Assembly (NCBI GenBank): GCA_035260525.1
Contig: DATFVB010000042.1
Span: 1 to 54,800, forward strand
Length of the DNA stretch: 54,800 nt
DNA from: Thermoanaerobaculia bacterium
GTDB lineage: Bacteria > Acidobacteriota > Thermoanaerobaculia > UBA5066 > DATFVB01
Direction: 5' to 3'
The number at the start of each line of letters is the position of its first letter. The stretch's first letter is position 1. Positions 2,699 through 54,121 of the stretch are shown piece after piece. The notes below the pieces were generated by a model. It had not been told where the DNA came from. It saw only the letters and a list, made by a program, of their open reading frames with translations, and ran no database searches. A program made the position numbers and the translations under genes.

Positions 2699-3400
2699 AT
2701 GGACGCGCGAACCGGCCCCAGCCGCACACTCGACCCTCCTTCGCGGCGGCGAACGTCTCCGCGCGAGACGATCGACCTTCTCTCGAAGAGCCGGCAGGCC
2801 GCATTCGGAATCGACTCGATGGAGCGGATCGTCTACTGGAACCGTTCCTGCGAGACGCTGCTCGGGCACGCCGCGCCGAAGGTGCTCGGCAAGCACTGTT
2901 TCGACATCATCGCCGGGCGCGACGAGAACGGAAACCGGTACTGCGCTCGAAACTGCCCGATATTGCCGCAGGCGCGAAACGACGACGACCCGGTGCGCCC
3001 GTTCACGCTGACGCTCCTCGACGCCGCGGGCCGGGAACGCGCGATCCGGTTCCGGACCTTCGTCGTGCCCTCCGTCCGCGCGGAGCTCTCCGTGGTCATC
3101 CACGTCGTCGCGGAAAAGGGCTCGGAGCTCTCGGCGACCGACGCCGAGCTCGCGTCGCTCGCGGCGAGCGCGCCCCCGGCGCGCTGGCCGATGCGAGCCG
3201 CGGCGCCCGTGATGCTGACTGCCCGCGAGAAAGAGATCGTCCTCGGCTTCGCCGAGGGTCTCTCGACCGCGCGCGTCGCCGAGAAGCTCCGCATCGCGCC
3301 CGTGACCGTCCGGAACCACACCCAGCGGATTCTCCTGAAGCTCGACGTCCACTCGAAGCTCGCCGCGGTCGTCTTCGCGTACCGGCACCAGCTGCTGTAG
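2699..3400 (+). CDS. PAS domain - LuxR-type HTH transcriptional regulator
   Basis: 233 residues. A PAS domain spans about residues 25-125 (FGIDSMERIVYWNRSCETLLG, then HCFDIIAGRDENG and CARNCPILP). The three cysteines of that second half are typical of single-PAS LuxR regulators and could sense redox state or bind a metal. A LuxR/GerE helix-turn-helix occupies about 165-233 (LTAREKEIVLGFAEGLSTAR, then EKLRIAPVTVRNHTQRILLK). There is no receiver domain. It is monocistronic, with a 188-base gap on the left that shows nothing else and the convergent hydrogenase maturation operon on the right. A role in hydrogenase control is possible from position only. Confidence 0.85.
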   Translation: MDARTGPSRTLDPPSRRRTSPRETIDLLSKSRQAAFGIDSMERIVYWNRSCETLLGHAAPKVLGKHCFDIIAGRDENGNRYCARNCPILPQARNDDDPVRPFTLTLLDAAGRERAIRFRTFVVPSVRAELSVVIHVVAEKGSELSATDAELASLAASAPPARWPMRAAAPVMLTAREKEIVLGFAEGLSTARVAEKLRIAPVTVRNHTQRILLKLDVHSKLAAVVFAYRHQLL

Positions 3401-8321: not shown

Positions 8322-10762
8322 TCACCTCCCGAGGGAACGAGCTGGAGAGCATCTCCATTCGCGCTGCTTGGCGCGGTGGCTGTTCTTGCGCTGCTTGCCG
8401 CGGCGAGTGTTCTTGCGCCGCTTGCGGCGGCGACTGTTCTTGCGCCGCTTGGCGCGGCGACTGTTCTTGCGCCGCTTGCGGCGGCCGCGCCTTTCGCGCA
8501 CTGGGCCGCCGCCACGACGGCCTGGCCGAGCGCGAGACCGCCGTCGCCCGGCGGCACGCGGCGCTGGAGAAGGACGCGGAGCCCGAGGCGGCCGACGTGC
8601 TCGGCGACTCGCTCGGCGAGCAGCGCGTTCTGGAAGCATCCTCCGGTCGCGACGACCGGAAGGTCCTTCGCGATCTCGACGGCGTGACGAACGAGCGCCG
8701 CGGTCGCGGAGGCGACCGTCTCGTGGAAGCGTCCGGAGATCGCCGAAGCATCCGCGCCCGCGAGGAATTCCGCGACCGCCGCACGGACGGCCGGTCGGAA
8801 GTCGAGCTCCCACGGCGTCGAGGCGCGGGCGATGGCGAACGGATAAGCGCGTCTCTCGGCCGGGTCGGCGGCGAAGTTCCACGCGAGCGCGACCTGTCCC
8901 TCGTGCCGCGCGGCCGGACGGGCCAGGAAGAGCGCGCCGAACCCGTCGAAATACCTTCCGACGCCCCGCGCGAGCGGCGTGTGGATCTTCGCGCCGAGCA
9001 TCTTCCGGACCGTGTCGACCGAGCGCGAGCCGAGGCGCTGGAAGAGCGGAAGACGGTCGATCGGCGCGCCCTCCGGGAAGGCGTCCTCGAGCAGCGCGAG
9101 CGCGACCCGCCAGGGCTCGCGGATCGCCGCCTCGCCCCCGGCGAGCGCGACGGGGCGCCACGTCGCGACGCGGTCGTAGCCGGCGGGGGTCGCGACGAGC
9201 AGCTCGCCGCCCCAGGCGGTTCCGTCGGTCCCGTAGCCCGTTCCGTCGTACGCGATTCCGATCGCGCGATCGAGGCCGTGCTCGGCCATCGCGCTCGCGA
9301 CGTGCGCGTGGTGGTGCTGGACGGCGATCTTTCGCCCCTTCCGCTCCCGCGCGTACGCCGTCGAGACGTATTCCGGATGAAGGTCGTGCGCGACGATCGC
9401 CGGCTCGACGCGAAGGAATCGCTCCATGCGAGCGATCGCCTCCTCGAACGCGGCGAGCGTCTCCAGGTTCTCGAGGTCGCCGATGTGAGGGCCCAGATAC
9501 GCCGATTCGCCGAGGCCGATGCAGAACGTGTTCTTGAGGTGCCCGCCGCAGGCGAGCACCGGCTCGGGGAAGGGGACGGAAACGGGAACCGCGCGCGGGA
9601 CCCATCCGCGCGACCGGCGCAGCAGCACGGGGCCGCCGCCGACGATGCGCGCGACCGAGTCGTCGCATCGGGAGGCGATGTCGCGGTCGTGGAGGAGGAA
9701 CGCGTCGGCGATGCGCGAGAGACGCGCGAGCGCCTCCTCGTTTCCGCACGCGATCGGCTCCTCCGACAGGTTTCCCGACGTCATCACGAGCGGGGTGGCG
9801 GCGGCGTCGAGGAGCAGATGGTGGAGCGGCGTGTACGCGAGGATCAGGCCGACGAGCGGATTGTCGGGCGAGACCTCGGGCGCGAGCCGCGCGCCCGCGC
9901 GCCGCTCGACGAGGACGATCGGCCGCTCGACCGAGGAAAGGAGCGCCCGTTCTTCGTCGGAGAGGACCGCGAGCGACTCGGCGTCGGCAAGCGTCCGCAC
10001 CATCACCGCGAACGGCTTCTCCTCGCGGCGTTTGCGGCGGCGCAGGCGCTCGACCGCTTCGGAGGACCGCGCGTCGCATGCGAGGTGGAACCCTCCGAGG
10101 CCTTTGACGGCGACGGTGCCGCCGGCGCGCAGGATCGAGACCGCGCCGTCGATCGGGTCCGTCCCGCGAACGCGGCCTCCGTCGTGAGAGACGAGCCGGA
10201 GCTTCGGCCCGCAGGCGGGACAGGCGTTGGGCTGCGCGTGAAAGCGGCGGTCCGCGGGGTCCTCGTATTCGCGCCGGCAGTCCGGGCACATCGGGAACGC
10301 GGCCATCGTCGTGGCGGGCCGGTCGTAGGGAACTTCGCGCGCGATCGTGAAGCGCGGCCCGCAGTGGGTGCAGTTCGTGAACGCATACCGAAAGCGGCGG
10401 TTGCCCGGATCGAAGATCTCCCGGAGGCAGTCGTTGCAGGTCGCGAGGTCCGGCGGAATCGAGACGCGGAGCCCTTCCGTCGCGCGGCTCGCGACGATGA
10501 CGAAGTCCCGGACCGTCTCGACCGGGATCGGCCGCGATTCGAGCTCGCGGATCTCGGCGGCCGGGGGCGGCGCGACGCGCAGCCCGCGCAGGAAGCTCTC
10601 GAGCGCCGACTCGCCTCCGAAGGCGTCGATCGTCACGCCGCGCGAATCGTTGGAGACGCGCCCCGCGATGCCGTTCTCCCGGGCGAGCCTCCAGACCCAG
10701 GGACGGAAGCCGACGCCCTGGACGGTTCCCCGGATCTCGATGCGAATTCCGGACTCGCTCAC
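8318..10762 (-). CDS. hypF: Carbamoyltransferase HypF with an unusual repeat tail
   Basis: 814 residues. HypF activates carbamoyl phosphate and passes the carbamoyl group to HypE. Domains in order: acylphosphatase (1-90, RGTVQGVGFRPWVWRLA), two zinc fingers (about 108-190, CNDC...CTHC and CPDC...CPAC), a YrdC-like nucleotide domain (about 200-390), and a Kae1-like domain from about 400 (HHHAHVASAMAEHG; AYDGTGYGTDGTAWGGELL). The start is GTG. The family normally ends near residue 755; here about 57 extra residues follow, built from 9-residue units such as SGARTVAAP. The stop overlaps hypC. The 290-base gap upstream holds a structured repeat element, so hypF may have its own promoter or be read through from hypA. 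Confidence 0.96.
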   Translation of the reverse strand: MSESGIRIEIRGTVQGVGFRPWVWRLARENGIAGRVSNDSRGVTIDAFGGESALESFLRGLRVAPPPAAEIRELESRPIPVETVRDFVIVASRATEGLRVSIPPDLATCNDCLREIFDPGNRRFRYAFTNCTHCGPRFTIAREVPYDRPATTMAAFPMCPDCRREYEDPADRRFHAQPNACPACGPKLRLVSHDGGRVRGTDPIDGAVSILRAGGTVAVKGLGGFHLACDARSSEAVERLRRRKRREEKPFAVMVRTLADAESLAVLSDEERALLSSVERPIVLVERRAGARLAPEVSPDNPLVGLILAYTPLHHLLLDAAATPLVMTSGNLSEEPIACGNEEALARLSRIADAFLLHDRDIASRCDDSVARIVGGGPVLLRRSRGWVPRAVPVSVPFPEPVLACGGHLKNTFCIGLGESAYLGPHIGDLENLETLAAFEEAIARMERFLRVEPAIVAHDLHPEYVSTAYARERKGRKIAVQHHHAHVASAMAEHGLDRAIGIAYDGTGYGTDGTAWGGELLVATPAGYDRVATWRPVALAGGEAAIREPWRVALALLEDAFPEGAPIDRLPLFQRLGSRSVDTVRKMLGAKIHTPLARGVGRYFDGFGALFLARPAARHEGQVALAWNFAADPAERRAYPFAIARASTPWELDFRPAVRAAVAEFLAGADASAISGRFHETVASATAALVRHAVEIAKDLPVVATGGCFQNALLAERVAEHVGRLGLRVLLQRRVPPGDGGLALGQAVVAAAQCAKGAAAASGARTVAAPSGARTVAAASGARTLAAASSARTATAPSSANGDALQLVPSGGE
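8362..8489 (-). repeat. 27-bp tandem repeat, about 4.7 units, coding the HypF tail
   Basis: Four full 27-bp units and a partial one, differing by one to five bases, lie in frame at the 3' end of hypF. On the coding strand each unit holds a (C)AAGAACA core; ACA and AGA codons are unlike the rest of the gene. The encoded unit A-A-S-G-A-R-T-V-A resembles the A-Q-D-A-A-R-T-V-A unit at 131-400. Confidence 0.88.
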
Positions 10763-10918
10763 GGTGGTCTCACGGTAGGCGGCGGGGGCCTCCGGCGGGG
10801 AGGTGTGAATGCATCAATCTGCGCAAATCGCTCACGCAAAACGCGAGCATTTCGAGACCGGCTGGGCATGGCCCGAAGCATGCGCAATGGAGGTTTGCGA
10901 GTTTCAGTTGCCCAAGCG

Positions 10919-11048
10919 ATCAGGCGCGGCCAGAGGGGTTGGAAGACGGGTCCGTGCGACCCGCCCGCGGGCGAGGCGTACTGAGAACGTACGTTAAGAC
11001 CGCGGGCGGGTCGCACGGACCTGTATAACGACCCCTATGGTCCGCGCC
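10919..11048 (-). repeat. Structured hairpin element, copy A (22-bp perfect stem)
   Basis: Arms 10949-10970 and 11000-11021 are perfect reverse complements, 22 bp, around a 29-base loop that contains the palindrome AACGTACGTT. Read on the minus strand, the element begins five bases after the stop of the Rieske gene with GGCGCGGACCATA, followed by GTCGTTATAC, and ends with CGTCTTCCAACCC and GGCCGCGCCTG. Copy B at 49491-49623 shares both flanks and the loop almost base for base, while the arms differ and still pair. There is no U-run. The remaining gap toward hypF, 10763-10918, shows AT-richer patches that could be a hypF promoter. Confidence 0.88.
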
Positions 11049-11053
11049 GGCCG

Positions 11054-11497
11054 TCAGCCGACGATGATGCGATCGGGTTGAACCCTGACCGGCACCCCGC
11101 GAAGCGGACCGGGGGGCGGCCCGGCCAGAACCTTCCCGTCCTCGTCGAAATGGCCGTCGTGGCAGGGGCATGAGTACGTCCGCGATTCCGGCTTCCACTT
11201 CACGACGCATCCCGAGTGTGTGCAGCGCAGGAGCCGCGCGGTCACGCCGCTCGCGTCGCGGAAGACCTCGACCGGGTTGTTCCGGACCGTGATCGTGACG
11301 CGCCGCCCGCCGGCGAGATCGCCCGACGGGACCGACACTTGCCCGGACTCGAGCAGCGCCGCCGCGCCCCGCGTGCATCCGGCCGGGAGGAGCCCGGCCG
11401 CGATCAGGGCGGCCGCCGCGCCGAGGACCTCGCGGCGGCCCAGGCCTCCCGGGCGGTCGATGGGTGTGCCCCGGGCGGCGCGGCCGCCGTCCTTCAT
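11054..11497 (-). CDS. Rieske [2Fe-2S] lipoprotein within the hyp operon
   Basis: 147 residues. A twin-arginine start (GLGRREVLGAAAALIAAG) leads to L-P-A-G-C (Cys41), which reads as a lipobox, so the protein is probably exported folded and anchored outside the membrane. The Rieske motifs are C92-T-H94-S-G-C97 and C110-P-C112-H113; C97 and C112 are the extra pair that forms a disulfide in high-potential Rieske proteins. It is small, a single domain, and is not part of a bc complex. It sits between hypB (ATGA overlap) and hypF. Rubredoxin-like electron carriers occur at this kind of place in some hydrogenase operons, so an accessory electron transfer role at the periplasmic hydrogenase is a reasonable guess. 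Confidence 0.88.
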   Translation of the reverse strand: MKDGGRAARGTPIDRPGGLGRREVLGAAAALIAAGLLPAGCTRGAAALLESGQVSVPSGDLAGGRRVTITVRNNPVEVFRDASGVTARLLRCTHSGCVVKWKPESRTYSCPCHDGHFDEDGKVLAGPPPGPLRGVPVRVQPDRIIVG

Positions 11498-12180
11498 CGC
11501 AAAGCGAGAACTTGCGCGGCGCGCTTGTCGGCGAGCGCGTTGGCCAGGAGCGCGTACCACGCTTCCAGGCCCGCGCCCGTCCGCGAGGACGTGACGAGGA
11601 GCTTCCCGGAGGGATTCAATGCGGCTACCTGGCTGCGGACGGCGTCGAGGTCGAAATCGACGTGCGCGAGGAGGTCGGCCTTCGTGACGACCGTGACCGC
11701 CGCGCGCGCGAAGATCGCGGGGTACTTGAACGGCTTGTCGTCTCCCTCGGCGACGGAAAGGAGCGCGACCTTGAAGTCCTCGCCGAGGTCGTAGGACGTC
11801 GGGCAGATCAGGTTCCCGACGTTCTCGATGAAGAGGATGTCGAGCGCCGAAAGCCGCCCGTCTTCGTCCGAGAGCGCCTTCTCGATCTGGCGCGCGTCGA
11901 GGTGGCAGGCGCCGCCCGTCAGGATCTGCCGGGCGGGGATGCCCTGCCGGCGCAGACGCTCCGCATCGCGTTCCGTCGCGATGTCGCCGTCGAGCGCTCC
12001 GAGGCGGAAGCGGCCGCGGAGCGCGCCCGCCGTCGCCTCGAGAAGCGTCGTCTTGCCCGACCCGGGAGAGGAGATCAGGTTGACGACGAGCGTGCCGGTA
12101 TCGCGGAACGCGCTGCGCAGTCCCGCGGCGGCCGCCGCGTTGGCGGCGAGCACCTTCTGGCGGACGTCGATCTCGGTCAT
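11494..12180 (-). CDS. hypB: Hydrogenase nickel incorporation GTPase HypB
   Basis: 228 residues of the SIMIBI GTPase class. The P-loop is SSPGSGKTT (38-46); DGDIATERDAERL follows, and GGACHLDARQIEKAL carries the metal ligands C92-H93, with C126 in ENVGNLICP as third ligand. The N-terminal CXXCGC site and the histidine-rich stretch found in some HypB proteins are missing, so it delivers rather than stores nickel. It overlaps hypA upstream and the Rieske gene downstream, each by ATGA. Confidence 0.97.
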   Translation of the reverse strand: MTEIDVRQKVLAANAAAAAGLRSAFRDTGTLVVNLISSPGSGKTTLLEATAGALRGRFRLGALDGDIATERDAERLRRQGIPARQILTGGACHLDARQIEKALSDEDGRLSALDILFIENVGNLICPTSYDLGEDFKVALLSVAEGDDKPFKYPAIFARAAVTVVTKADLLAHVDFDLDAVRSQVAALNPSGKLLVTSSRTGAGLEAWYALLANALADKRAAQVLALR

Positions 12181-12765: not shown

Positions 12766-13893
12766 ATGTCGTCGACGGACGTGGAGCTCAGGACCGAGCG
12801 GAAGGCCCGCGTGGACCGCCGCGATTTCATCCGCGTGTGCACGATGGCCCTGGCGGCCGTCGGGATGCCCTACGCGGCGGCGGCGAAGGTCGCCAAAGCG
12901 ATCCAGGCGAAGAAGCTGAAACCCTCCGTGATCTGGCTGCACTTCCAGGAATGCACGGGATGCACCGAGTCGCTCCTGCGCACCTCGCACCCGGCGGTCG
13001 CGGACCTGATCCTGGATCTCGTCTCGCTCGACTATCACGAGACGCTGTTCGCCGCGGCGGGCCACCAGGCCGAGGCCGCGCTGCGCAAGGCGATGAAGGA
13101 CAACGCGGGCAAGTACGTCGTCGTCATCGAGGGCGCGATTCCGGTCAAGGAAAACGGGATCTACTGCCAGATCGGCGGACGCACCGCGCTCGATATCGTT
13201 CGCGAGGTCTCCGCCAAAGCGGGCGCGATCATCGCGATCGGCTCGTGCGCGTCGTGGGGCGGCATCCCGTCGGCGGACCCGAACCCGACCGGCGCGACGG
13301 GCGCGCCCGAGATCCTGAAGGGGAAGACGGTCGTCACGATCCCCGGCTGCCCGGCCAACCCGTACAACCTCCTCGGAACGGTGCTCCAGTTCGCGACGTT
13401 CGGGACCCTCCCGGAGCTCGACGCGAAAGGGCGCCCGAAGTTCGCCTACGCCCGCACGATCCACGAGCACTGCCCCCGCCGCGCTCACTTCGACGCCGGA
13501 CGCTTCGCCGAACAATACGGCGACAACGGCCACCGGCAGGGCTGGTGCCTGTACAAGCTCGGCTGCAAAGGCCCCGAGACGCACGCCAACTGTTCGGTGC
13601 TCCATTTCGGCGAAGTCGCCGACGCTTGGCCGATCGGCATCGGCCATCCCTGCTACGGGTGCACGGAGCAGACGCTCGCGTTCCGCGTGCCGATGCATAC
13701 GACGGTCGACATCGAGCGGCCGACGCCGCCCGACACGTATCCGCCGATCCATGCGAAGGAAGGGCGAGTGAGCCCGGTCGCGACCGGCGTCGCCGGCGTG
13801 ATCGGCGGCGCGCTCGTCGGCGCGGGGCTCATGGCTTCCCGCCGGCTCGGCGAGGCGCCCCCCGAGGAGAAGGGCCCCGGAAAGGAGGCCTGA
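12766..13893 (+). CDS. hybO: [NiFe] hydrogenase small subunit, group 1 (Hyb-type)
   Basis: 375 residues. A Tat signal (VDRRDFIRVCTMALAAVG) exports the folded enzyme. Iron-sulfur ligands: ECTGCTES (C63, C66), GSCASWGG and PGCPANP for the proximal cluster; HEHCPRR, GWCLYKLGCKG, HANCS, and GHPCYGCTEQ for the medial and distal clusters. The proximal site is the ordinary CTGC, not the CTCC with two extra cysteines of oxygen-tolerant group 1d enzymes. A C-terminal segment VATGVAGVIGGALVGAGLMA anchors it in the membrane. The start was set at the ATG eight bases after a strong AGGAGGT; a longer in-frame start upstream lacks such a site. First gene of an order matching E. coli hybOABCD. Confidence 0.95.
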   Translation: MSSTDVELRTERKARVDRRDFIRVCTMALAAVGMPYAAAAKVAKAIQAKKLKPSVIWLHFQECTGCTESLLRTSHPAVADLILDLVSLDYHETLFAAAGHQAEAALRKAMKDNAGKYVVVIEGAIPVKENGIYCQIGGRTALDIVREVSAKAGAIIAIGSCASWGGIPSADPNPTGATGAPEILKGKTVVTIPGCPANPYNLLGTVLQFATFGTLPELDAKGRPKFAYARTIHEHCPRRAHFDAGRFAEQYGDNGHRQGWCLYKLGCKGPETHANCSVLHFGEVADAWPIGIGHPCYGCTEQTLAFRVPMHTTVDIERPTPPDTYPPIHAKEGRVSPVATGVAGVIGGALVGAGLMASRRLGEAPPEEKGPGKEA

Positions 13894-44590: not shown

Positions 44591-44664
44591 GGGTCCATAG
44601 CTCAGCGGTCCAGAGCCACCGGCTCATAACCGGCCAGACCCCGGTTCGAATCCGGGTGGACCCA
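44591..44664 (+). tRNA. tRNA with anticodon CAT (elongator Met, or Ile2)
   Basis: 74 bases fold as a cloverleaf: acceptor GGGTCCA/TGGACCC, D arm GCTC/GAGC, anticodon loop CTCATAA, T arm CCCGG-TTCGAAT-CCGGG, discriminator A. The first anticodon-stem pair is A-C. It is not an initiator, as position 1 pairs. CCA is not encoded. Lysidine-modified Ile2 tRNAs have the same anticodon, and the sequence alone does not settle this. Confidence 0.92.
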
Positions 44665-47591: not shown

Positions 47592-48866
47592 ATGATGCGG
47601 GCTGACCCGCCGCCGGCGGAGCTTCGCGACACCCTCGAAATCCGGAACCTCTCCTGCCTGGCGACGGCGACGGGCGCTTCGGCGCGCCGCGGCAGCGCGC
47701 AGCGCGAGATCCTCGTCGTCGAGCACGCGGCGGTCCGCTGCGAGGGGGGGCGGATCGTCTTCGCGGGCCGGGACTCGGATCTGCGCGGCCGCTTCGACCG
47801 GCCCGAGCGCGAGATCGACGGGTCCGGGAAGACGCTCCTTCCGGGGTTCGTCGACGCGCACACGCATCCGGTCTGGGCCGGCGACCGGGCCGCGGAGTTC
47901 GCGCGTCGCCTCGCCGGGGAATCGTACGCGGCGATCGCGGCGTCCGGCGGCGGGATCGTCGCCACGGTCGAGGCGACCCGCCGGGCGACGCGAGAAGAGC
48001 TCACCGCGGCGACGCGTTCGCGTCTGGTCGCGATGCGCCGGTCGGGGACGACGACGGCGGAATGCAAGTCCGGGTACGCCCTCGACGCCGAAGGGGAGAT
48101 CCGGTCGCTCGAGATCCTGCGGGACCTGGCCGCGGAAGGCATCATCGGGATCGTTCCCACGCTGCTTGCGGCGCACGAGATCCCGGTCGAACGCCGGCGA
48201 GACCGCTCCGGATGGGTGCGCGAGATCACGGAAGCGATCCTTCCCCGCGCCGCCTCGGCGGGCCTCGCGCGCTTCTGCGACGTCTTCTGCGAGGAGGGCG
48301 TCTTCACCGTCGCGGAGTCCCGCGCGATCCTCTCGCGCGCGCGGGACCTCGGCCTCGGGCTGCGGGTGCATGCCGACGAGCTCGCCCGCTCCGGGGGCGC
48401 GCGGCTCGCGGCGGAGCTCGGGGCGGCGTCGGCGGACCACCTGCTCTTTGCCGGGGAAGACGAGATCGCGGGGCTCGCCGCCGCCGGAACCGTCGCCACG
48501 CTGCTGCCCGGCACGGCCTGGTGGCTCAAGTCCCGCCGCGCGCCGGCGCGGGCGCTCGTCGACGCGGGAGTTCCCGTTGCCGTCGCGACGGACGCCAATC
48601 CGGGCTCGTGCAACACGGAATCGCTGCCGGCCGTCGCCGGCCACGCGTGCCACGACTACGGAATGTCGATCGAGGAGACGCTGACCGCGATCACGTTGAA
48701 CGGCGCGGCCTCGCTCGGCCTGGCGCCGGACCGGGGCTCGATCGAGGCGGGCAAGCGCGCCGACCTCGTCCTGATCGACGCTCCCGACTACCGGCACCTC
48801 GTTTATCATTGGGGCCTGCCCCTGGTCACGCACACGATCGTGGGAGGTCGCGTCCATGAATTTTGA
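47592..48866 (+). CDS. hutI: Imidazolonepropionase
   Basis: 424 residues of the amidohydrolase fold. Metal ligands: FVDAHTHPVWAGDR, LLAAHEIP, RVHADELA, and the catalytic Asp in ATDANPGSCN. Third step of histidine breakdown, giving formiminoglutamate. The next gene overlaps by 11 bases and uses the product pathway. Two ATG codons stand together at the start; either may be used. No hutH or hutU lies in view. Confidence 0.95.
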   Translation: MMRADPPPAELRDTLEIRNLSCLATATGASARRGSAQREILVVEHAAVRCEGGRIVFAGRDSDLRGRFDRPEREIDGSGKTLLPGFVDAHTHPVWAGDRAAEFARRLAGESYAAIAASGGGIVATVEATRRATREELTAATRSRLVAMRRSGTTTAECKSGYALDAEGEIRSLEILRDLAAEGIIGIVPTLLAAHEIPVERRRDRSGWVREITEAILPRAASAGLARFCDVFCEEGVFTVAESRAILSRARDLGLGLRVHADELARSGGARLAAELGAASADHLLFAGEDEIAGLAAAGTVATLLPGTAWWLKSRRAPARALVDAGVPVAVATDANPGSCNTESLPAVAGHACHDYGMSIEETLTAITLNGAASLGLAPDRGSIEAGKRADLVLIDAPDYRHLVYHWGLPLVTHTIVGGRVHEF

Positions 48867-49488
48867 GAGCCGCTCGTTCCGCGAGTTCCGGTCCTCCCTC
48901 GCCTCCGACGCTCCCACTCCCGGCGGCGGCACCGCCTCGGCCGCGGCCGGCGCGATGGGCGCGTCGCTCCTCTCGATGGTCCTCGCGCTCACGGTCGCGA
49001 AGGAGAAGTTCGCCGCGGTCGCCGGCGAGCTCCGCCCGATCGCGGAAGAGGCCGAGCGCGCGGGGACGCGCCTCGAGGAGCTCATGAACGAGGACGCGGC
49101 GTCCTTCGACGCGATGGTCGCCGCGCGAAAGCTCCCGAAGGAGACCGACGCCGAGAAAGCGGCGCGCGCGCGCGCGATGCAGGACGCAGCGAAGCGCGCG
49201 GCGGAAGTCCCGATGGAAACCGCCCGCTGCGCGGCGACACTTCTGTCCCGCGTCCCGCTCGTCGCCGAGAAGGGGAACCCGAACGCCGCTTCGGACGCCG
49301 GTGTCGCGGCGCTGCTGCTGGCGTCGGCGGCCGAGGGCGCGCTCCTGAACGTGGGAATCAACCTCGGGTCGATCCCGGACCCGGCCTTCGTCCAGACGAT
49401 GGAGAAAGAGACGGCGACGCTGTCCGCCGACGTCGAGCGGCTGAGGGCGCAAGTCATTGCTCTGGTCCGCAAAACCTTTTCCAAGTAG
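48856..49488 (+). CDS. Formiminotetrahydrofolate cyclodeaminase
   Basis: 210 residues, all-helical FTCD_C domain: SFREFRSSLASDAPTPGGGT and AAGAMGASLLSMVLALTVAK at the N-terminus, GNPNAASDAGVAALLLASAA in the middle. It converts formimino-THF to methenyl-THF and ammonia. Mammalian enzymes fuse it to the transferase domain; here it is stand-alone. It overlaps hutI. The stop is followed after two bases by the structured element copy B. Confidence 0.92.
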   Translation: MNFESRSFREFRSSLASDAPTPGGGTASAAAGAMGASLLSMVLALTVAKEKFAAVAGELRPIAEEAERAGTRLEELMNEDAASFDAMVAARKLPKETDAEKAARARAMQDAAKRAAEVPMETARCAATLLSRVPLVAEKGNPNAASDAGVAALLLASAAEGALLNVGINLGSIPDPAFVQTMEKETATLSADVERLRAQVIALVRKTFSK

Positions 49489-49490
49489 CG

Positions 49491-49623
49491 GGCGCGGACC
49501 ATACGCGTCGTTATACGGGACGCGGGCGGCCGGCCGGCGGGCTTAACGTACGCCCCGGTACGCCGCGCCCGCCGGCCCGGCTGCCCGCGCGCGTCTTCCA
49601 ACCCGTCTGGCCGCGCCTGGTCG
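49491..49623 (+). repeat. Structured hairpin element, copy B
   Basis: Starts GGCGCGGACCATA two bases behind the cyclodeaminase stop, then GTCGTTATAC, arm 49522-49542, loop with CTTAACGTACG and GTACGCC, arm 49567-49588, then CGTCTTCCAACCC and GGCCGCGCCTG. Arms pair over about 21 bp with one bulge and one mismatch. The flanks and loop are nearly identical to copy A read on the minus strand; the arms are not. Confidence 0.88.
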
Positions 49624-53409: not shown

Positions 53410-53439
53410 CGAAACCTCCCGTTTCGACGCGACGAAAGT

Positions 53440-53605
53440 GGCGCTTCGGCAGGTCTCCTGACTTCCGGATCGTCCGCCCGGCGCTCCTTCCCGAGCGCGC
53501 GACTTGCATCGGCAGCGCTCAGTGGTTTCTTGCGCGGGCGTCCCCGGTCACAGTGGCGGGAGCCGTGCGGGTATTTCACCCGCTTCCCTTTTCACCCCTT
53601 CCCGG
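53440..53605 (-). promoter_or_regulatory. Cobalamin (AdoCbl) riboswitch
   Basis: On the minus strand the order is GGTGAAAAGGGAAGC, CCCGCCACTGTGA, AACCACTG, CGGGAAGG, and the B12 box AAGTCAGGAGACCTGCC (53448-53464). All are standard parts of the class. The start codon follows 39 bases behind the B12 box. No terminator U-run is seen, so control is probably at translation, by hiding GGGAGG. Confidence 0.93.
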
Positions 53606-54121
53606 CAATCCGGGAGGAGGCACCGAAAACGTTCAAAGATCGCGAGGGAAGGAAACATACGCCACGGTCGCGCGGAGAGCAAATCGTCCGGGGCAAGTCG
53701 CCCGCCGCGATTCGCGAGGCGGCGAATCGGGTTCACGAACAGGAGCGGCAATCCGGCATTGTTTCGAAAGTTGTCCCTTCGTCATCTTGAGTCCTTCGCT
53801 CGCGGCTGTCATCCTGGGCGCAGCGGCCTGCCGCGCCGACTCGTCGCGCCGAAGCTTCAGCGAAGGAGGAAGCCTTGGCGAAGGCGGGAAGGATCTACTC
53901 TCGGGTCGCTCGAGGATAGACTCCGCGAAGGATCTACTCTTGGTGGGGTAGATTCTTCGTCGCTTCGCTCCTCAGAATGACAAAGTCGCCTTACCTCGCC
54001 CGTCGAACGGGGAGAGGGGAAGCGACGCCGATCAGCCGAACACGACGAGGACGCCCGTTTCCTTCGAGTGCTTCGAGCACGGGCCGAATCCCGCGTCCGG
54101 CCGGAGCAAGCTCCCGCGATG
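53606..54121. other. Long spacer rich in dispersed repeat relics
   Basis: Some 500 bases without a protein-like frame. From about 53780 it holds pieces of the GTCATCCTGAG family: GTCATCTTGAGTCC, GTCATCCTGGGCGCAGCGG, CGCCGAAGCTTCAGCGAAGG, repeated GAAGGATCTACTCT, and finally TCGCTTCGCTCCTCAGAATG(AC) in reverse. The two ends face each other, as in a composite palindrome. A CCTCGCCC...GGGGAGAGG pair follows near 53996. The promoter of the riboswitch transcript should lie near 53620-53700 but could not be fixed. Confidence 0.5.

Follow-up and report, generated by a model that had tools for sequence, protein, structure and literature searches.

Dispersed palindromic repeats behind stop codons, found in a single genus of Thermoanaerobaculia

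Most REPs of REP-rich genomes are found no more than 20 bp from the end of a gene, where the neighbouring genes are unidirectional or convergent, and the ends of GTAG REPs often supply the TAG stop codon (PMC3733652). The enterobacterial ERIC/IRU repeat is a 127-bp hairpin that has been reported to influence mRNA stability in an orientation-dependent manner (PMC2229807). E. coli REPs situated at most 15 nt from a stop codon have been reported to stall ribosomes (cited as ref. 17 in PMC12306157). The palindromes described here were found in a Thermoanaerobaculia bacterium (GCA_035260525.1), in which two copies stand in the window, that is, the whole stretch of DNA analysed (54 800 nt, positions 1–54 800 of contig DATFVB010000042.1). 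The family appears to be undescribed so far, although its kind is known: it is best filed with the dispersed palindromic repeats (REP/ERIC/MITE kind) rather than as a singular regulatory RNA.

Copies in the window and the family to which they belong

An earlier note on this DNA had placed one copy (A) at 10919–11048 on the minus strand and another (B) at 49491–49623 on the plus strand; both placements were confirmed to within a few bases (Table 1). The feet, flanks and loop were near-identical between the two copies, and the arms were of differing sequence and still paired, as had been described. Upon folding, each copy gave a single long, imperfect hairpin, inside which there is a small CGTAC/GTACG stem-loop; the z-scores against dinucleotide shuffles were −10.1 (copy A) and −5.8 (copy B), and no shuffle matched either copy. 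The TGA stop codon of the Rieske-domain gene stands 5 nt ahead of the hairpin foot of copy A, and the TAG stop codon of the FTCD_C-type gene 2 nt ahead of that of copy B. A and B were the only type I copies returned by a model search of the window.

Table 1. Positions of the two copies, their host genes and two further RNA features in the window.
Feature	Position	Strand	Basis
Copy A, type I element, 128-nt imperfect palindrome	10921–11048	−	blastn; covariance model R1, 140.8 bits; fold, −95 kcal/mol
Copy A, inner stem-loop CGTAC..GTACG, most conserved part of the family	10977–10993	−	alignments A2 and A3
Copy A, 3' tail, ends in AACTGA (weakly conserved family motif)	10904–10920	−	flank logo
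Copy A host gene, Rieske [2Fe-2S] domain protein	11054–11560	−	Pfam PF00355
Copy B, type I element, 129-nt imperfect palindrome	49491–49619	+	R1, 119.2 bits; fold
Copy B, inner stem-loop	49547–49562	+	alignment A2
Copy B host gene, cyclodeaminase/cyclohydrolase (FTCD_C) family protein	48856–49488	+	Pfam PF04961, NF045657
tRNA gene	44591–44664	+	
Cobalamin riboswitch	53431–53642	−	118.6 bits

The view of A and B as a structured element held; the count of two did not, the family comprising approximately 200 copies or more. With copy A as the query, blastn returned some 40 copies of near-full length from this genome. In the covariance model search proposed in the earlier note, model R1 (built from 27 copies) gave 138 matches in this genome, some places being matched on both strands, and 95 matches in one sister species, and model R2, from the second arm type, gave at least 150 and 119 matches, respectively. 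When the full-length R1 places were merged with the R2 matches listed, at least 194 distinct copies were counted in this genome; the sister species holds more than 80 copies. Many copies are situated at contig ends of this genome (G000; e.g., C338:25, C9:17, C79:28, C36:39, C193:5325 and C7:7077), which indicates that the hairpins tend to interrupt the assembly and that the copy number is likely underestimated.

The family was found only in this one genus. R1 was empty in 17 further genomes from the order, and R2 in 17 from the order or the class, the best 150 candidates being scored per genome in both cases, and a blastn search over 39 relatives outside the genus was empty. A pattern scan of the genome collection returned one match (L215, on a contig labelled Bryobacteraceae), which reads as a chance match; R1 gave nothing in that genome. 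In viral contigs, 83 stretches share the loop string alone, and none of them is a family member. The earlier note had recognised no known family, in agreement with an Rfam search at the gathering threshold, which gave no match; at relaxed thresholds, sub-threshold hairpin matches only were obtained (e.g., to plant microRNA precursors).

The element is a 127–130-bp imperfect hairpin that contains an inner stem-loop. Its arms are of two types, namely ACCATACGCGCCGTTATACGGG / CCCGTCTTCCARCACGTCTGG (type I) and CGATGCATCGAGCCGGGCGGGCGCG / CGCATCCCGCCGGGCTCGCGCCTCG (type II), and the foot GGCGCGG/CCGCGCC and the inner hairpin are common to both. In the alignments, the inner loop is invariant and the mismatches in the stems are conserved; according to folds and alignments, the ends pair end to end as terminal inverted repeats, and the length falls within the MITE/ERIC class of 100–200 bp. 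Hybrid, chimeric, shortened (about 70–90 nt) and insert-bearing copies are also present. The flank logo contains a weak tail 3' of the foot, TCGTCGTT...AACTGA, in which AACTGA was found in 22 of 114 copies, mostly 12–13 nt beyond the hairpin. The hairpins of tandem copies are mostly 42–51 nt apart, corresponding to a repeated unit of approximately 175 bp. At four places in this genome (C111:9293, C175:12323, C185:1973 and C102:1635) the arms are split by another shared segment, GATCGCCGAGCACGCCAGTGCGAAGGCC, and other copies bear an insert, TCGCGCCGAAGC...GGCGAAGGCGG, suggesting that both are nested small palindromes.

Position relative to stop codons

Positions were counted with a simple home-made codon-usage gene caller, which was applied to the fetched loci. 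A sense-strand stop codon was situated at most 20 nt from the start of 90 of the 122 full copies in this genome, in which most loci were picked because they bear a copy, and of 38 of the 40 full copies in the sister species (G001), of which about 0.58 Mb was read. The stop codon of an antisense gene was never found within this distance (0/105 here and 0/35 in the sister species, 0/140 together). TAG was enriched among the element-adjacent stop codons both in this genome (58/90, vs. 69/280 elsewhere; p=2e-11) and in the sister species (19/38, vs. 85/392 elsewhere; p=3e-4). TAG stood at most 12 nt ahead of the foot in 55 of 114 copies, as compared with 2 of 114 control positions, and exact GTAG was present at the foot in 18 of 114 copies.

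The possibility that the element supplies the stop codons was rejected, as orthologous sites keep the stop codon in place even beside an unrelated hairpin. A stop-proximal hairpin general to all genes was likewise rejected: the median z-score was −0.9 for genes without a listed element, as against −4.8, and most of the strong stop-proximal hairpins found in such genes turned out to be further members of the family. The anchoring is tighter than passive survival would obviously give, and this points to targeted insertion or to function. A dedicated system is conceivable, in which some process that senses where translation ends (through TAG-specific insertion or through coupling to transcription/translation) puts palindromes right behind stop codons, or swaps them there as interchangeable interior modules, and in which the palindromes determine translation termination or the fate of the mRNA for roughly 5% of a genus's genes; we regard such a system as rather unlikely.

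A strong hairpin at gene ends would also suit a family of intrinsic transcription terminators, but the U-tract is missing: TTTT occurred within about 14 nt on the 3' side in 4 of 114 and 1 of 29 copies, and the hairpin of copy A drew no terminator-like call. This reading, which we consider very improbable, was rejected for lack of the U-tract. A few copies stand 3' of a separate U-tract.

An imperfect palindrome directly 3' of a stop codon and in gene orientation has the anatomy and position of an integron attC recombination site, and both species encode true integron integrases (450 and 468 bits; cut-off 265), located at 3300–4298 of L222 (G000:C184) and 2127–3221 of L223 (G001:C103). An attI-like site lies downstream of the integrase in this genome, and the sister species carries a cassette with an ordinary attC. 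On the other hand, the RYYYAAC/GTTRRRY boxes are absent from the ends of the palindrome in the flank logo, the copies are dispersed and form no cassette arrays, and the ordinary attC of the sister's integron (GCATAAC...GTTATGC) is unrelated in sequence. The missing core boxes and the real attC of the sister species largely refute an attC-like site, which we consider extremely unlikely.

Covariation, wobble pairs and exchange of interiors

In 27 copies, 94.8% of the pair cells were paired, as compared with 85.7% after shuffling. Alignment A2 contained 91 double-changed cells (29.5 in shuffled and at most 12 in frame-slid controls) and 18 pairs changed on both sides (10.5 in shuffled and at most seven in slid controls). 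The covariation reported in the earlier note therefore lies far above shuffles and slides. It favours a structured RNA that is under selection and not primarily mobile, i.e., a 3'-UTR module that stands behind some 200 genes, governs mRNA 3' ends or the termination of translation, and acquires its compensatory changes by selection on pairing. The fixed polarity and stop-codon distance, the invariant inner loop with conserved mismatches and the retention of a family member at orthologous sites (see below) speak for it as well. It is countered by the existence of tandem, chimeric and truncated copies, by unrelated hairpins at several orthologous sites, and by the wobble pairs. A selected RNA helix should tolerate G⋅U better than A⋅C, a general expectation that is uncalibrated for these stems; in the stems of 143 copies, G⋅T mismatches (G⋅U in the sense RNA) were counted 41 times and A⋅C mismatches 68 times. 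The corresponding tRNA control comprised 11 tRNAs, too small a number for use. Altogether, a selected structured RNA is a doubtful explanation of the family.

Pairing kept without an RNA-type wobble bias would suit a site that acts at the DNA level, namely a palindrome that a chromosomal protein (nucleoid, gyrase or repair) recognises in duplex, cruciform or single-stranded hairpin form, as proposed for BIMEs. Conserved mismatches and loop are in line with such a site, and so is the over-representation of convergent gene ends in this genome (42/93, vs. 14/251 gene pairs without the element). Near convergent ends, however, such a site would not need to face one gene in one orientation, yet no antisense stop codon was found among the 140 cases counted. 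We consider a DNA-level site improbable.

About two dozen orthologous places, with flanks mostly 75–92% identical, were compared with the sister species, matches and switches being judged by eye. A family member was present at the same place in the sister species at about 17 of them, and at about eight of these retained sites it was of a different arm type; several orthologous sites carried unrelated hairpins instead. At orthologous sites, the entire interior, comprising both arms plus the loop, was often replaced by that of another family type. The tandem pair beside the Y1 transposase gene (see below) is of the same make: the foot and the spacer are identical, one copy is of type II and the next of type I. 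Because arms and loop are contiguous, a single exchange tract alters both arms together, without pair-by-pair compensation. At two places in the sister species (L180, about 13552–13650 and 9856–10010), a different palindrome family, GTCGCGAGTC...GACTCGCGAC, stands just 3' of the stop codon, where this genome has the element.

Given the lack of a G⋅U excess and the swapped interiors at orthologous sites, covariation is a weaker argument for selection on RNA. The element is undescribed in Rfam, structured and covarying, as the earlier note had it; its further claim of selection on structure is not supported as worded for RNA. Where the covarying copies are paralogues within a single genome, covariation alone is insufficient evidence that RNA structure has been selected. 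Strong covariation within a genome can arise alongside whole-interior exchange between copies, and caution is advised when new structured RNAs are called from paralogous repeats.

Mobilisation and comparison with known repeat systems

The only Y1 transposase gene found in this genome (P0001; L129, 2941–3888, on G000:C147) is RAYT-like, encodes a DnaA-type C-terminal domain, scored 77.3 bits against a cut-off of 80 for the NCBIfam REP-associated tyrosine transposase (REP_Tyr_transpos), and has two tandem copies of the repeat, plus fragments, immediately upstream of it. The own ends of P0001, GGGGTCAGATCTG, fit GGGGWSAS, the motif of TIR-type relatives (PMC3733652). A Y1 gene was looked for in the sister species and none was found, and Y1 genes occur in 10 of 13 relatives without the repeats. 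The neighbourhood is suggestive in one genome, but with Y1 absent from the sister species and common in repeat-free relatives, Y1/RAYT is a doubtful mobiliser, and no mobilising enzyme is tied to the palindrome family. No autonomous element or transposase sharing the ends was seen among the partial matches in the fetched loci, and no clean empty/filled pair with a target duplication (TA) among the orthologous sites compared.

The palindromes are dispersed and tandem repeats with polar stop-codon anchoring, they combine one inner hairpin with either of two exchangeable types of arm, and a family member is retained at many orthologous sites. We consider it fairly probable that they are dispersed palindromic repeats of the REP/ERIC/MITE kind, confined to one genus and seated at gene 3' ends; their interiors would change mainly by ectopic exchange, and they would probably act as mRNA 3' hairpins. 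The copies would once have spread as non-autonomous elements by means of some mobilising enzyme, with survivors mainly at gene 3' ends. Ectopic exchange with other copies, for which the shared foot would serve as the anchor, would then renew the interior, and the complementarity of the arms might be held by hairpin-templated repair, by constraint or by both. If transcribed, the hairpin would open the 3' UTR and could there block 3' exonucleases; by analogy with E. coli REPs at most 15 nt from the stop codon, a hairpin inside the footprint of the terminating ribosome may slow termination. Its predicted role is probably exerted on the mRNA 3' end near terminating ribosomes. With approximately 200 natural replicates in two species, each placing one large hairpin 1–20 nt 3' of a stop codon, effects on termination, mRNA stability and 3' ends should be statistically measurable.

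Like the GTAG- and CGTC-tagged REP superfamilies, the present family consists of high-copy, dispersed, intergenic palindromes downstream of genes, for the most part less than 20 bp beyond the end of a gene and between convergent genes or genes of the same direction, and, as in GTAG REPs, the TAG at its foot often coincides with the stop codon. REPs are single palindromes of 20–40 bp, whereas the present elements contain an inner stem-loop with an invariant loop; they are also near-absolute in orientation to the upstream gene, have no RAYT tied to them, and bear exact GTAG in a minority of copies only. Its size excludes the family from the GTAG REPs. With ERIC/IRU and other bacterial MITEs it shares the size class, the end-to-end imperfect hairpin and the intergenic location, but it occurs in a different organism, has two exchangeable arm types and is anchored at stop codons. 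The imperfect palindrome with conserved mismatches, placed right after the stop codon in gene orientation, resembles the attC sites of integrons, from which it differs in lacking core boxes and arrays, the genus's own integron having an ordinary attC. The E. coli stop-proximal REPs, for which ribosome stalling has been reported, resemble the present family in where the hairpin stands with respect to the stop codon; the present hairpin is much larger.
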